From positions 1,299,999 through 1,363,998 of the forward strand of contig NZ_LMPS01000001.1 of the NCBI RefSeq assembly GCF_001424405.1: a stretch of 64,000 bases of DNA, written 5' to 3'. This document shows positions 47,275-53,024 of this stretch, one piece after another; position 1 is the stretch's first letter; every line of letters begins with the position of its first letter. A model generated the notes under the pieces. It was not told the DNA's origin, ran no database searches, and was given only the letters and a program-made list of their open reading frames with translations. The position numbers and the translations under genes are program-made. This DNA is from Dyadobacter sp. Leaf189. GTDB lineage: Bacteria > Bacteroidota > Bacteroidia > Cytophagales > Spirosomataceae.

Positions 47275-50247
47275 CTACTTTTCCCTTACCACCGAATCCA
47301 TTCTGCTGATGTCCATCACATCTACCGTCATGAACCCAAACTCTTCCGTTACGATACCCCGAATTTTGTAAACACCCTTCACCGAAAAGTTGACCTTAGT
47401 GCCTCTTGGAAAATGAACTGTATCGATAAACTTCCCTTCCTGGTCCAGAAAAGTACCGAAATGCATTGCCTCGCCCCGGGAAGTCCGGGTGTTCTTAACA
47501 GCCACCAGATACCCATACTGAATTACTTCCTGATTTACATACCGGTGCAGATCCTTGCTCATAACGCTGGGCGGCAGTGGATGTTTAACGAGCGCAAACG
47601 GGCTGCAAAGCGGGTATCCCAGCAACTCTATCTGATCATAGGCATCGTCGATGGGCGACGACTCGAATGAAGGAAGCTCGTAATCCTTGATTTCCGTTTG
47701 AAACAATTGCTTCTGCGGGACCTTCACGGGTGTGGTGCTCAGCCGGAAATGTGCTTTCCATAACAGCGTTTTCTTATCAATACCGGTAAACCGGAAAGCG
47801 TCAATGCGGATTAGGATCGTGAGCTGTTCAATGGAAATGGCGACCCGGTCCAGAAAATTATTCAGTGACAAAAAAGGTCCGTCCGCCTCGCGCGCCTGGA
47901 TGATTTTTGCAATCGTTTTTTCTTCGATCTCATTCAGGAACTGCATTCCAATGTAAATATCCTTTCCTTCGATCACAGTCTGTGCGTAACTGTGGTTTAC
48001 ACAGGGTGCAAGCACATTTCCGCCGAGCATTCGTGCCTCGTGGATATACAACTCCTGGCCGTAAAAACCGCCTCCATTGTTGAGCACCGCCACCATGAAT
48101 TCCAGCGGGAAGTACGTTTTAAGAAAAAGGGTTTGATAGCTTTCCACGGCATAGGATGCAGAATGTCCTTTTGCAAACGCATATCCCGCGAAACTGGCGA
48201 TCTGGTTCCAGATTCCCTGCGTCATTTCTTCATCGTAACCCTTTTCGCGGCAGTTTTTAAAGTACTTGTTCTTCACCCTGTCAAACTCCTCCCTTCCCCT
48301 GAACTTACCACTCATTCCGCGCCGGATCACATCCGCTTCGCCCAGGTCGAGCCCGGCAAAATAATGCGCCACCTTGATCACGTCTTCCTGGTACACCATG
48401 ATACCATAAGTCTCTTCCATTAACTCAAGCAACTTCGGATGTGCTTCTTCACGACGTTCGGGGTGTCGGTGGCGGAGAATGTACTCGCGCATCATCCCGC
48501 TTTTGGCCACGCCCGGTCTGATAATGGAGCTCGCCGCAACCAGGCCGAGGTAATTGTCCACTTCCAGCTTTTTCAGCAACATTCGCATGGCCGGAGACTC
48601 TACATAAAAGCAACCAATGCATTGCGCCTGCTTGATCAGGTCGTTGATCTTGGGGTCTGTTTTAAATTTTTTTACATCATCTATATCGAACTCGGGTGCA
48701 TCCGGGCGGTTGTATCTGATCACTTCCAGTGTCTCTTTGATCTTCGCCAAACCTCTTTGTCCGAGAATGTCATATTTGTTCAGACCGACATCCTCGGCGA
48801 TCACCATATCAAATTGTGTGGTCGGAAAGCCTTTGGGCGGAATGTCAGTAGCAGAAAAGTAATGGATCGGCCGCTCAGAGATCAATATACCTCCCGCGTG
48901 TATGCTGAGGTGGTTTGGCTGATTGTTCTTTTGGAGATAATCCGCGTATCTGATCACCAGCGACCCGTATTGATCGAGTTTTCGGGGATCGTATTTCCCG
49001 TTACTTAATGCTTCAATTTCGTAAGCAGGCAAGCCGAATACCTTTCCCAGTTCCCGCACAGCGGCATTATGCTGGAATGTGCTGTAAGTCGCCAGTAGCG
49101 AAGCCTGGCCTTTTTTGCCGAAAGTGTCGAAGATATATTGGGTCACATCCTCCCGGTCGCGCCAGGAGAAATCAATGTCAAAGTCGGGCGGATTTTTCCT
49201 GTACAAATTCATAAACCGCTCGAAGTAGAGATCAAGCTCGATCGGATCTACATTGGTGATATTCAGCAGATAGGCGATAATGCTGTTTGCGCCGCTCCCG
49301 CGTCCGACGTAGTAGTATCCTTTTTCCCGCGCATAGCTGGTAATTGCGTGATTGACGAGAAAAAAGGGGATGAAATTCTGTTTCTCAATCAGCTCCAGCT
49401 CCATATTGAACCGGTCGAGTATGACATCATTCACATTCGAGCCGTAGCGGTACCTCAGTCCATCACAGCCGAGCTGGAAAATGCGCTGGTAATCGTCCCT
49501 TTTGCTCTGACCAAAGACCTGCAAATTCTGATGTTCACGCTCATCCCCAAATTTGAAATGAACATTACATTCATCCAGCAGCTTTTCGGTATTGTAAATG
49601 ATCGTTGAGAAATCTTTTTGGTTAAAATGGTAAGTCAGTACTTTACGCGGCACGATCTGCTCGTCTTCGCAGCCGGTTTCCGACGGGAGCAATTTGCTGA
49701 GCATTGTATTTCCGTCAACCGCGCGCAGCAGGCGGTGTGCATTGAAATCTTTTTTGTGCCTGAATGTAACTGCTTGCTGAATAACCAGTTTCTCCTTGAA
49801 TTTTATCAAATGCGAGAACTGGATCTTGTTCAGATCTTTCAGCGAAATGCCAATAAATTCATTCTCTCCGAAATGCTGTTTTCTGGCTGTATTTGCTTTT
49901 TCAAAAGGGTATATGAAAGCAGTATCTGTAAGCTGCGGCGCGGTATCTGGAAAGTTGGTCTTCTCGTTCAGGTGTTTGGACAAGAATCCATTCAAAGCCT
50001 GAAATCCTGCATTGCTTTTTGCCAGCCCAATATATTGCTGTTCAATCCCATTGCGGAAGTCTATCCCTACAACAGGTTTAATGTCAAACTTCGGTGCCAG
50101 CCGCACGAAGTTCAGGCAGCCGGAGGTATTATTAATATCCGTCAGCGCCATGCAATCATAATCATGCTCCCTCCCGAGCCGGAGCAACTCCTCCTCCGGA
50201 ATCATCCCAAACCGCAGGCTAAAATACGAGTGACAGTTGAGTAGCAT
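47275..50247 (-). CDS. dnaE: DnaE-like C-family DNA polymerase with degenerate PHP (DnaE2-like)
   Basis: 990 residues, about 170 shorter than replicative DnaE. The catalytic carboxylates are present: PDFDIDF (D357, D359) and the third Asp in LNKYDILGQRG; the RGSGANS nucleotide loop is at 316-322. The PHP domain has lost metal ligands: the HxH start is N-C-H (residues 4-6), and the TDH motif is TDI (36-38), so proofreading or phosphatase activity is unlikely. A C-terminal OB fold remains. Together with the nearby dinB and S24 repressor genes this suits an error-prone, damage-induced polymerase rather than the replicative one. DnaE2 identity is inferred, not proven. Confidence 0.85.
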   Translation of the reverse strand: MLLNCHSYFSLRFGMIPEEELLRLGREHDYDCMALTDINNTSGCLNFVRLAPKFDIKPVVGIDFRNGIEQQYIGLAKSNAGFQALNGFLSKHLNEKTNFPDTAPQLTDTAFIYPFEKANTARKQHFGENEFIGISLKDLNKIQFSHLIKFKEKLVIQQAVTFRHKKDFNAHRLLRAVDGNTMLSKLLPSETGCEDEQIVPRKVLTYHFNQKDFSTIIYNTEKLLDECNVHFKFGDEREHQNLQVFGQSKRDDYQRIFQLGCDGLRYRYGSNVNDVILDRFNMELELIEKQNFIPFFLVNHAITSYAREKGYYYVGRGSGANSIIAYLLNITNVDPIELDLYFERFMNLYRKNPPDFDIDFSWRDREDVTQYIFDTFGKKGQASLLATYSTFQHNAAVRELGKVFGLPAYEIEALSNGKYDPRKLDQYGSLVIRYADYLQKNNQPNHLSIHAGGILISERPIHYFSATDIPPKGFPTTQFDMVIAEDVGLNKYDILGQRGLAKIKETLEVIRYNRPDAPEFDIDDVKKFKTDPKINDLIKQAQCIGCFYVESPAMRMLLKKLEVDNYLGLVAASSIIRPGVAKSGMMREYILRHRHPERREEAHPKLLELMEETYGIMVYQEDVIKVAHYFAGLDLGEADVIRRGMSGKFRGREEFDRVKNKYFKNCREKGYDEEMTQGIWNQIASFAGYAFAKGHSASYAVESYQTLFLKTYFPLEFMVAVLNNGGGFYGQELYIHEARMLGGNVLAPCVNHSYAQTVIEGKDIYIGMQFLNEIEEKTIAKIIQAREADGPFLSLNNFLDRVAISIEQLTILIRIDAFRFTGIDKKTLLWKAHFRLSTTPVKVPQKQLFQTEIKDYELPSFESSPIDDAYDQIELLGYPLCSPFALVKHPLPPSVMSKDLHRYVNQEVIQYGYLVAVKNTRTSRGEAMHFGTFLDQEGKFIDTVHFPRGTKVNFSVKGVYKIRGIVTEEFGFMTVDVMDISRMDSVVREK

Positions 50248-50288
50248 TTTGTTGAGAATTTAAACTTTATACTTACCTTGAACGTTAC

Positions 50289-50303
50289 TAACGCGGTACG
50301 TTA
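50289..50303 (+). promoter_or_regulatory. Candidate HigA operator over the higB start
   Basis: TAACG-CGGTA-CGTTA is a perfect inverted repeat with a 5-nt spacer that runs into the higB ATG. Further CGTTA/TAACG half-sites lie just upstream (50283-50293). HigA proteins repress their own operons through such sites. Confidence 0.55.
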
Positions 50304-50584
50304 TGATTGTGAGTTTTTCGTCCAAAATCACGGAAAGGATCTGGCTTGGAGAGCGGATAACCTCGCTACCTATGGATATTCAATCCGTTGCGAGACGGAA
50401 ATTGAGAATGTTAAATAACTCACAGAATCTGGCTGACCTCCGAATTCCGCCGTCAAACCGCCTGGAAAAGTTGTCAGGCAATTTGAAGGACTTTTATAGC
50501 ATTCGTGTCAATATCCAGTGGCGGATCATATTCAAATGGGTTGATGGAAATGCGCTGGAAGTAGAAATTGTGGATTATCATTAA
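50303..50584 (+). CDS. higB: HigB-type RelE/ParE-superfamily toxin
   Basis: 93 residues. The C-terminal half shows the HigB pattern: LADLRIPPSNRLEKLSGN, YSIRVNIQWRIIF, and VEIVDYH ending in the conserved histidine. HigB enzymes cleave mRNA on the ribosome, with substrate selection set by Arg and His residues (R68/R73-like) present here. It precedes the antitoxin gene by 9 bp, the reverse-order arrangement that defines higBA. It lies head-on between the dinB-like and dnaE-like genes. Confidence 0.93.
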   Translation: MIVSFSSKITERIWLGERITSLPMDIQSVARRKLRMLNNSQNLADLRIPPSNRLEKLSGNLKDFYSIRVNIQWRIIFKWVDGNALEVEIVDYH

Positions 50585-50593
50585 TTATACTCA

Positions 50594-50893
50594 ATGGAAA
50601 AGCTTGAAAATGTTCACCCGGGTGAAGTGCTGCAGGAAGAGTTTCTTGCGCCAATGGGAGTCAGCGCTTACAAACTCGCAAAGGATACTTCAATTCCGCA
50701 AACAAGAATCAGCGAGATCATCAAAGGGCGCCGCAGGATCACTGCGGATACGGCACTCAGGCTTGCGAAGTACTTTGGCACTTCTCCTAAATTCTGGCTG
50801 GGATTGCAGGACGATTTCGATTTGGAAGAAGAGCAGCATTTGATTACCAATGAGTTGAATAACATACAAACCTTGCAGCAAGACGCAGCCTGA
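50594..50893 (+). CDS. higA: HigA-type XRE-family antitoxin
   Basis: 99 residues beginning MEKLENVHPGEVLQEEFLAPMG, then the helix-turn-helix SAYKLAKDTSIPQTRISEII with KGRRRITADTALRLAKYFGTSPKFWLGLQ, the hallmark of HigA antitoxins. It neutralises HigB by direct binding and autoregulates higBA. The C-terminal tail (EQHLITNELNNIQTLQQD) is species-specific. It converges with dinB, 8 bp apart. Confidence 0.95.
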   Translation: MEKLENVHPGEVLQEEFLAPMGVSAYKLAKDTSIPQTRISEIIKGRRRITADTALRLAKYFGTSPKFWLGLQDDFDLEEEQHLITNELNNIQTLQQDAA

Positions 50894-50901
50894 TATTCAA
50901 C

Positions 50902-52131
50902 TCAGGCATTCCTGTGCGCCGGGATAATGGGTGGGTCGCCGTTGAAGGGGTTTCCCATACTTGAAATATTAGGTATGCCCAGCGTGGTTGCCCAGCTGAT
51001 AATGGAGTTTCCGCGCTCGTCAATCCCGTACTTATCACGTATGTAGTCCATGGCCAGGTACAGGTTCAGCCGCTCTTCGGAATCATCAAACATATTGATC
51101 TGGTGATTGCCGGATACCAGGTCGCTAAAATTCACTCCTACCAGTCTTACCATCATTCTGCGGTTATAAAGCTGGTCAAACAACCGCTCTATATGCGGGA
51201 TCAGCACGTGATCTGCCGAAGAGTAGGGGATTTTAACCTGTTTTGAAAAGGTATTGAAATCGGAATACCGGATCTTGACAGAGATGCACGAAGTCAGCTT
51301 GTTGCCTGAGCGAAGCTGGTACGCCAGGTTTTCTCCCATCGCACGGATCATCTCGCGCATTCTTCTGATATCCCCCGTATCTTTCCCAAAAGTGCGCTCA
51401 TTGGAGATCGACTTGCGTTCGTGAAACGGGATAATCGGCGAGTTGTCCAGCCCATTGGCGCGGTTCCAGAGTAGTACGCCGTTTTTACCCAAAACCTGGC
51501 TCATTACCTGCACCGGCATATCCTGAATCGTCTTCACATACCGGATTCCCATATTTTGCAGGATCTTATCCGTCTTTTCTCCCACCATCGGGATCTTCTT
51601 GACCGGCATTGGCGCAAGGAAGGACTTCTCCATTCCTGCTTCCACCTTGCGGTGATTGTTGGGCTTTGCCTCCTCTGTCGCCACTTTCGCGACTATCTTA
51701 CTGGTAGAAAGCCCCAGTGAAATCGGCAGTCCGCTCTCCCGCCTGATGCGCTCTCCCAGGTTGGTAGCAAGCTTGTAGGAGCCAAAGAATTTATCCATTC
51801 CCGACAAATCAGCATAAAATTCATCGATACTGGCTTTTTCGAAAACGGGCACTGTTTCACTGATAATCTCAGACACGATCTTCGATTCCTTGGAATAAAC
51901 ACCCGCGTCGCCACGTATGACGATCGCCTCGGGACAAAGCATTCTAGCTGTTTTCATGGGCATACCGGAATGGACGCCAAATGCTCTCGTTTCATAACTG
52001 CATGCGGCAACTACCCCGCGATCGCCCACGCCGCCGACCATAACCGGCTTATTTTCAAGCCGGCTGTCATTCTTCCGCTCGACTGAGACGAAGAAGGTGT
52101 CAAGATCCAGATGTAATATCGTGCGGTCCAC
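50902..52131 (-). CDS. dinB: Y-family DNA polymerase IV
   Basis: 409 residues. Start codon is GTG (an in-frame TAA lies upstream, and ILHLDLD must be near the N-terminus). The Y-family palm has D9, D11 and D103/E104 (SIDEFYADLS), the steric gate F13/F14, then a little-finger domain. QINMFD (344-349) is a sliding-clamp binding motif. The tail after it is about 60 residues and unusual for DinB. It performs translesion synthesis with low fidelity. It diverges from the S24 repressor gene across 131 bp that holds three matching operator-like boxes. Confidence 0.95.
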   Translation of the reverse strand: MDRTILHLDLDTFFVSVERKNDSRLENKPVMVGGVGDRGVVAACSYETRAFGVHSGMPMKTARMLCPEAIVIRGDAGVYSKESKIVSEIISETVPVFEKASIDEFYADLSGMDKFFGSYKLATNLGERIRRESGLPISLGLSTSKIVAKVATEEAKPNNHRKVEAGMEKSFLAPMPVKKIPMVGEKTDKILQNMGIRYVKTIQDMPVQVMSQVLGKNGVLLWNRANGLDNSPIIPFHERKSISNERTFGKDTGDIRRMREMIRAMGENLAYQLRSGNKLTSCISVKIRYSDFNTFSKQVKIPYSSADHVLIPHIERLFDQLYNRRMMVRLVGVNFSDLVSGNHQINMFDDSEERLNLYLAMDYIRDKYGIDERGNSIISWATTLGIPNISSMGNPFNGDPPIIPAHRNA

Positions 52132-52155
52132 AAATTGGAATTTTTACGTGTTGAT

Positions 52156-52166
52156 GGATTTATTCC
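52156..52166. promoter_or_regulatory. Operator-like box 1 (GGA-N5-TCC)
   Basis: GGATTTATTCC lies directly downstream of the dinB -7 element and covers its likely start site. It resembles boxes 2 and 3 (GGA-N5-TCC, 11 bp) and is probably a binding site for the S24 repressor. Confidence 0.55.
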
Positions 52167-52195
52167 AAATATATGGATCATTTCCATCTGAGAAA
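52166..52195 (-). promoter_or_regulatory. Promoter of dinB
   Basis: On the minus strand: TTTC (52195-52192), 18-nt spacer, TATATTTG (52173-52166). It matches the Bacteroidota pattern (one mismatch at -33) and would start transcription about 30 bp before the GTG. Boxes 1 and 2 overlap or flank it. Confidence 0.6.
52175..52185. promoter_or_regulatory. Operator-like box 2 (GGA-N5-TCC)
   Basis: GGATCATTTCC lies in the spacer of the dinB promoter, 19 bp (start to start) from box 1, about two helical turns, so proteins on both boxes would sit on the same face of the DNA. Confidence 0.55.
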
Positions 52196-52196
52196 A

Positions 52197-52207
52197 GGAA
52201 ATATTCC
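52197..52207. promoter_or_regulatory. Operator-like box 3 (GGA-N5-TCC)
   Basis: GGAAATATTCC is a near-perfect palindrome (GGAA-ATA-TTCC). It lies 22 bp from box 2 and at the -33 position of the repressor gene's own promoter, as expected for autorepression. Confidence 0.55.
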
Positions 52208-52217
52208 AAAATAATAT

Positions 52218-52225
52218 TATTTTTG
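52218..52225 (+). promoter_or_regulatory. -7 promoter element of the S24 repressor gene
   Basis: TATTTTTG matches TAnnTTTG 38 bp before the repressor ATG. The place of the -33 element is occupied by box 3. Confidence 0.45.
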
Positions 52226-52262: not shown

Positions 52263-53024
52263 ATGCCGACCGAAGAAGAATTTAAACGTTTCAAACAAGT
52301 AAGAGAAGAGTTGAATCTGACCCAGGCTGCATTCGCGGAAGAGTTGGGCATCAGCGCGACTACGGCCGATATAGAACGAGGCCGCACGCGCATTCCGGGG
52401 CAGGTTGTGAAGGAGCTTTTAAAGAAGTATCACATTAATCCGCTCTGGCTTTTTGGTGAAAGCAGCCAGAAATACCTGCATTCAGATAAAGTTTCTGTCA
52501 CCCCGAAAGTAGTGACAGTCGACAGCGAGGGCAAAGAGAATATCGTACTGGTGAATGCAAAAGCGGCTGCGGGTTACCCGAGCAATATCGGTGACGCGCA
52601 ATGGTTTGAGCGTTTGCCGGCATTCGGTATTCCGCTTCCCGAGTACCGGAATGCCACGTTTCGCGGCTTTCAGGTGGATGGAGACAGTATGTCGCCTGTG
52701 CTGCAATCGGGAGAGTGGATCGTGGGGAAAGCTGTTGATGATATGGATGGCCTGAGCAACCGGCGGATGTACGTCGTTGTGACTGCCGATAGTGTGCTCG
52801 TCAAAAAGATCCAGAAAGAAGCGAATTCCGGTTTTGTAAACCTGGTATCCCTGAACCCCGATTACGCACCTATCCGCATAGATCAGAATGAGATCAGGGA
52901 AATGTGGCAGGTGAGCAGTAAGCTGACATTCAATCTGGAAGCCGATACTCAGCAGGTGAGCCTGCAAAGTCTCCACCAGGAAATGAAAGAGCTGAAAGCA
53001 GAGGTAAAAAGGTTGGTGAAATAA
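52263..53024 (+). CDS. XRE/S24-type LexA-like self-cleaving repressor
   Basis: 253 residues. N-terminal Cro/C1 helix-turn-helix (about 15-45: LTQAAFAEELGISATTADIERG), a linker with a likely cleavage site AAAGYP (A103-G104), and an S24 peptidase with the nucleophile in VDGDSMSP (S142) and the general base Lys in VLVKKI (K181 or K182). LexA and phage CI repressors cleave themselves this way when RecA filaments form. Bacteroidota often lack classic LexA, and this hybrid (XRE HTH plus S24) may replace it. Divergent dinB and three shared boxes support this. RecA dependence is not shown. Confidence 0.9.
   Translation: MPTEEEFKRFKQVREELNLTQAAFAEELGISATTADIERGRTRIPGQVVKELLKKYHINPLWLFGESSQKYLHSDKVSVTPKVVTVDSEGKENIVLVNAKAAAGYPSNIGDAQWFERLPAFGIPLPEYRNATFRGFQVDGDSMSPVLQSGEWIVGKAVDDMDGLSNRRMYVVVTADSVLVKKIQKEANSGFVNLVSLNPDYAPIRIDQNEIREMWQVSSKLTFNLEADTQQVSLQSLHQEMKELKAEVKRLVK

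Follow-up and report, generated by a model that had tools for sequence, protein, structure and literature searches.

The closest described systems are found in Bacteroidetes, where GGA-N5-TCC was reported as the operator of the S24 proteins called non-canonical LexA (Sanchez-Osuna et al. 2021, PMC8565304). In that study a GGA-group protein, examined by EMSA and RT-qPCR, bound its box specifically in vitro and was found to be mitomycin-inducible, and cleavage of the non-canonical LexA proteins was deduced from their residues, as it is here. The GGA group was placed mainly in Flavobacteriaceae, the homologs of Cytophagaceae could be assigned to neither cluster, and the main text mentions neither Dyadobacter nor cooperativity. 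An earlier note on the present DNA had called the motif unlike the classic LexA boxes of other phyla; since the operator was published in 2021 with EMSA and mitomycin data, we rejected novelty of the motif.

The locus described here lies in a 64-kb stretch of Dyadobacter DNA (the window, that is, the whole stretch analysed). With a probability of roughly 0.88, we regard it as the region that controls an SOS-type DNA-damage switch of Dyadobacter, run by a GGA-group non-canonical LexA on three boxes. The motif, the type of regulator and the target are already known; what is added is that Dyadobacter belongs in the GGA group, that boxes pair at 19 bp and that the regulon is narrow, together with leads on a small orphan protein, on a box 0 and on a split operon. 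The features are as follows.

47275-50247, minus strand: dnaE-like pol III alpha gene, 990 aa (Pfam), which ancestrally came second, after dinB, in a shared operon
50303-50893, plus strand: HigB-HigA toxin-antitoxin pair, reversed, between dinB and dnaE
50902-52131, minus strand: dinB-type Y-family polymerase gene with GTG start (Pfam IMS, IMS_C)
52137-52147, no strand: candidate degenerate box 0, GGAATTTTTAC, GGA-N5-TAC, in the dinB leader, 19 bp before box 1
52156-52166, no strand: box 1, GGATTTATTCC, over the predicted dinB start site
52166-52173, minus strand: putative dinB -7 element, TATATTTG, of TAnnTTTG type, in the linker of boxes 1 and 2
52175-52185, no strand: box 2, GGATCATTTCC, 19 bp on from box 1, between -7 and -33 of the dinB promoter
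52197-52207, no strand: box 3, GGAAATATTCC, 22 bp on from box 2, in the -33 region of the repressor promoter
52218-52225, plus strand: putative repressor -7 element, TATTTTTG, of TAnnTTTG type, 3' of box 3
52263-53024, plus strand: non-canonical LexA-type repressor gene, 253 aa (Pfam HTH_3 and Peptidase_S24, alignments, tree)

The 131-bp spacer between dinB and the repressor gene holds three GGA-N5-TCC sites, and on rechecking, the positions (52156, 52175 and 52197) and the spacings of 19 and 22 bp given by the earlier note all proved right. Its description of both spacings as about two helical turns is approximate: in B-DNA 22 bp make 2.1 turns, while 19 bp make 1.8, a non-integral number that speaks against the explanation proposed here. 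When one flanking base per side is included, boxes 1 and 2 match TGGA-N5-TCCA perfectly, while box 3 reads AGGA-N5-TCCA; no CTAA-N5-TTAG was found in the spacer. As the bare motif is weakly specific (the genome has 407 WGGA-N5-TCCW sites against 377 of the reversed control), it might be argued that the boxes are chance matches within an AT-rich spacer. However, the window has 23 GGA-N5-TCC sites against 13.3 expected from shuffles, and at the window rate only 0.043 boxes are expected in 131 bp, with P(>=3) of about 1.3e-5, and, more decisively, the boxes are conserved among the relatives. In fact, among 40 distinct spacers chosen from the 52 loci with a dinB/repressor spacer, every one has exactly three boxes with boxes 1 and 2 spaced by 19 bp, whereas boxes 2 and 3 stand 22 bp apart in 27 spacers and 23 bp apart in the other 13. 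All 18 positions of the box cores are invariant, versus 15 of the 75 other positions, many of which belong to promoter elements or to a degenerate fourth box. Chance is thereby refuted as an explanation, its remaining probability being negligible. The comparison with other Dyadobacter spacers, which had been proposed as a check, has thus removed the objection that the boxes might not be conserved, and the sighting itself is confirmed from these sequences as that of a real operator.

As for the placement of the boxes on the two promoters, the -7 element of Bacteroidota promoters is TAnnTTTG. Such an element for dinB is found in 39 of the 40 spacers, its variable columns being the two n positions, and it exactly fills the 8-bp linker of boxes 1 and 2. 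For the repressor gene, the distance from the start of box 3 to such an element is 20-23 bp, again in 39/40, which puts box 3 over the -33 side of that promoter. The start sites of dinB and of the repressor are predicted positions; the geometry supports the placement given earlier: box 1 at the presumed dinB start, box 2 between -7 and -33, and box 3 at the repressor -33 region. Moreover, a pair search allowing one mismatch recovered box 0 by itself; its GGA and final C are kept in 40/40 spacers and its TAC in 37/40. Box 0 is a candidate degenerate box in which TCC has been replaced by TAC, and it may serve as a further operator; since the dinB start codon follows directly, the same sequence may also have a role in translation.

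The repressor carries an N-terminal HTH_3 domain (PF01381, E 5.4e-9) and a C-terminal Peptidase_S24 domain (PF00717, E 3.5e-12), and the winged HTH of LexA (PF01726, LexA_DNA_bind) is not among its Pfam matches. A site Ala103-Gly104 together with Ser142 and Lys181, matched to the LexA positions by motif (GDSM, VLVK), is invariant in alignments of 8 and of 17 orthologs; the ortholog of D. crusticola is 99% identical. An AlphaFold model of the protein was set aside for its mean pLDDT of 56, and a sequence search of the PDB returned a designed HTH as the only match. With canonical LexA of E. coli and B. subtilis it shares the logic of a self-cleaving S24 repressor and dinB as a target, whereas here the N-terminus is a phage-type HTH_3 and the box differs.

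To place the repressor among its relatives, a profile was searched in 395 genomes of the phylum. The best matches outside Dyadobacter are eight proteins from one other family of the same class, with E between 1e-97 and 1e-106, after which E drops sharply to 1e-41. GGA-N5-TCC stands upstream of the repressor gene in all eight of these nearest orthologs outside the family, and five of them carry at least three boxes, 18 and 22/23 bp apart; of the next 21 homologs (<=35% identity), none was found to have it upstream and 7 have CTAA-N5-TTAG. In a quick maximum-likelihood tree, whose support values are without bootstrap and from which the two experimentally studied published proteins were left out, the 16 proteins with GGA boxes (7 of Dyadobacter, 1 of another genus of its family and 8 of the other family) group together in a single clade supported at 100. 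The Dyadobacter repressor thus falls in the GGA group, apart from the CTAA-box regulators, which are the same kind of repressor with the same logic but have another box, belong to another clade, and are at most about 32% identical to it. Moreover, among 200 genomes of its own family, orthologs at E <= 1e-30 occur only in Dyadobacter and in one genome from one other of 36 genera. The latter ortholog (L219) is 45% identical, and its gene is preceded by a pair of boxes at 19 bp, with dinB not adjoining. So scattered an occurrence may point to horizontal transfer or to wide loss.

Compared with the published GGA group (PMC8565304), the locus has in common the box, the HTH_3 and S24 make-up, the Ala-Gly and Ser-Lys residues, autoregulation and dinB (often with dnaE) as the core target, to which umuDC and SRAP are added in sister species; it differs in its three boxes at 19 and 22/23 bp, the divergent dinB and a very small regulon. 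In the same-class relatives outside the family, by contrast, the spacing is 18 and 22/23 bp, and the divergent neighbour, where identified, is a radical-SAM repair-type gene.

Our proposal builds on the boxes, their conservation, the geometry of the promoter elements, the catalytic residues, the association of motif and clade, and the recurrence of the 19-bp pair, all established here. By analogy with the relatives studied in 2021, dimers of the 253-aa HTH-S24 repressor would occupy the three boxes. The pair that brackets the dinB -7 element, boxes 1 and 2, would then keep dinB off, plus dnaE where the operon is intact, while box 3 over the repressor's own -33 region would provide autoregulation. 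Upon DNA damage, RecA filaments would bring about self-cleavage at Ala103-Gly104 via Ser142 and Lys181, again as reasoned for the relatives, and with the boxes empty both arms would be induced. The logic of a self-regulating SOS switch, proposed by the earlier note, is thus well supported at the level of sequence by a GGA box in the repressor's own promoter, the HTH and S24 domains, the Ala-Gly site, the Ser/Lys residues and error-prone polymerases as targets. Its interpretation is partly supported, being right in substance for a kind of system already described.

A box is present upstream of dinB in all the Dyadobacter loci compared, and the missing dnaE box is explained by the structure of the operon. 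The earlier statement that dnaE has no copy before it holds for the intergenic stretch 50248-50302, where no GGA-N5-TCC occurs; dnaE lacks a box of its own since ancestrally it stood second, behind dinB, in one operon, which the reversed HigBA divides here. Among 40 distinct relatives, HigBA between the two genes is complete in 11, partial in 8 and absent in 21. In most of the 21, dnaE lies 18-150 bp beyond dinB and is read the same way, which makes the two an operon presumably driven from the dinB operator. From these complete, partial and absent states, it seems that the operon was split (or rejoined) more than once, or that HigBA decayed in several lines. A box of its own for dnaE in the split genomes was also considered and rejected, as the two GGA-N5-TCC matches in 19 genomes are not conserved. 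In the window, the stretch from dinB to dnaE showed no terminator-like site, and therefore read-through from dinB into dnaE is possible. The divergent dnaE/higB stretch (50248-50302) also contains an AACGT...ACGTT inverted repeat, which could be a HigA operator, so that dnaE might be under control of the antitoxin.

Beyond this locus, box pairs were searched genome-wide at spacings of 19 and 22 bp only, with the reversed pattern as control. In 48 Dyadobacter genomes, 139 pairs at 19 bp were found versus 9 controls, and 51 pairs at 22 bp versus 9. Most of the 51 are the dinB/repressor site itself, to which this spacing is nearly confined, and the 22-bp pair thus finds little support as another unit of general use. 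From the fixed spacing, cooperative binding of dimers at the 19-bp pair may be proposed. On the other hand, the spacing could reflect promoter architecture rather than contacts between dimers, the -7 element having to fit between the boxes, as that of dinB does exactly in its 8-bp linker; this reading bears on cooperativity alone and can stand beside the main explanation. However, when 40 sites with a 19-bp pair other than dinB/repressor were retrieved to inspect their neighbours, TAnnTTTG was found inside the linker in only 3 despite the same linker length, and the other-genus ortholog keeps its 19-bp pair without dinB. The spacing is therefore not set by the promoter element, and we hold the architectural reading to be unlikely; the 3/40 result is the best argument, if an indirect one, for contact between neighbouring dimers.

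The neighbours of these 40 sites give an outline of the regulon. An SRAP gene (PF02586) divergent from an S24 UmuD-like protein occurs at 7/40, in some with a umuC-type gene next to it; an orphan protein of about 65 aa occurs at 10, a GDSL-type lipoprotein at 5 and an orphan of about 135 aa at 4. In the host genome (G000), exact 19-bp pairs stand at three promoters only, namely those of dinB/repressor, of a small protein (C6:316216) and of a secreted protein (C1:418720). A wide regulon with recA and uvr had been suggested earlier, but did not emerge among the genes checked: no box was found upstream of the host recA, nor of its second dinB, umuDC pair, imuB or SRAP gene. A scan for single boxes was rejected as a predictor of the regulon, as nearly all isolated AT-rich host boxes examined fall within coding frames.

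With so small a host regulon (three paired promoters and a recA without box), 'SOS' here may mean only the control of polymerases. One could even suppose that the boxes are real but serve a local, phage-CI-like polymerase switch that answers to a signal other than RecA/ssDNA and stands outside the SOS response, as would fit the boxless host SOS genes and the presence of a secreted and an orphan small protein among the paired targets. Nevertheless, the S24 cleavage site and dyad are intact, umuDC and SRAP carry the same 19-bp pairs in some sister species, and a GGA-group relative is mitomycin-inducible (PMC8565304); we thus consider such a local switch very improbable and retain the SOS-type switch.

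Several of the neighbours merit attention by themselves. In the host stretch C6:316216-316469 a pair precedes a protein of about 65 aa (MEKLHYLIVSEEMVWLWYYD..., C6:316278), which also follows a pair at nine other Dyadobacter loci retrieved and has no Pfam or NCBIfam match; it is a candidate SOS-controlled small protein. The pair at C1:418720-418749 is followed after about 100 bp by a secreted protein of 379 aa, apparently of the sorting-domain type, whose homolog in the nearest relative (L123) has the box pair too. At five Dyadobacter loci (L115, L125, L128, L129, L134) a pair stands before the GDSL-type lipoprotein, which has a Tat-like SRRRFFRQSG signal and is possibly an unexpected SOS target. 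The host umuDC (C1:228 kb) has a relaxase-like mobilisation gene as its neighbour and neither a GGA nor a perfect CTAA box upstream, which suggests that it arrived with a mobile element, outside the control of the GGA-group repressor.

Altogether, Dyadobacter comes from a lineage that the 2021 study (PMC8565304) could not place, and it is now assigned to the GGA-N5-TCC SOS group. The rule of the 19-bp pair makes a weak motif of six bases specific enough for the prediction of targets, and the analysis points to a candidate SOS-controlled small protein and to a regulon apparently without recA. More tentatively, and with the odds somewhat against it, the strictly spaced cooperative operator may define a small rebuilt SOS regulon free of recA, consisting of lesion-bypass polymerases and new effectors, among which the orphan of about 65 aa might be a regulator of a damage checkpoint or of cell division.
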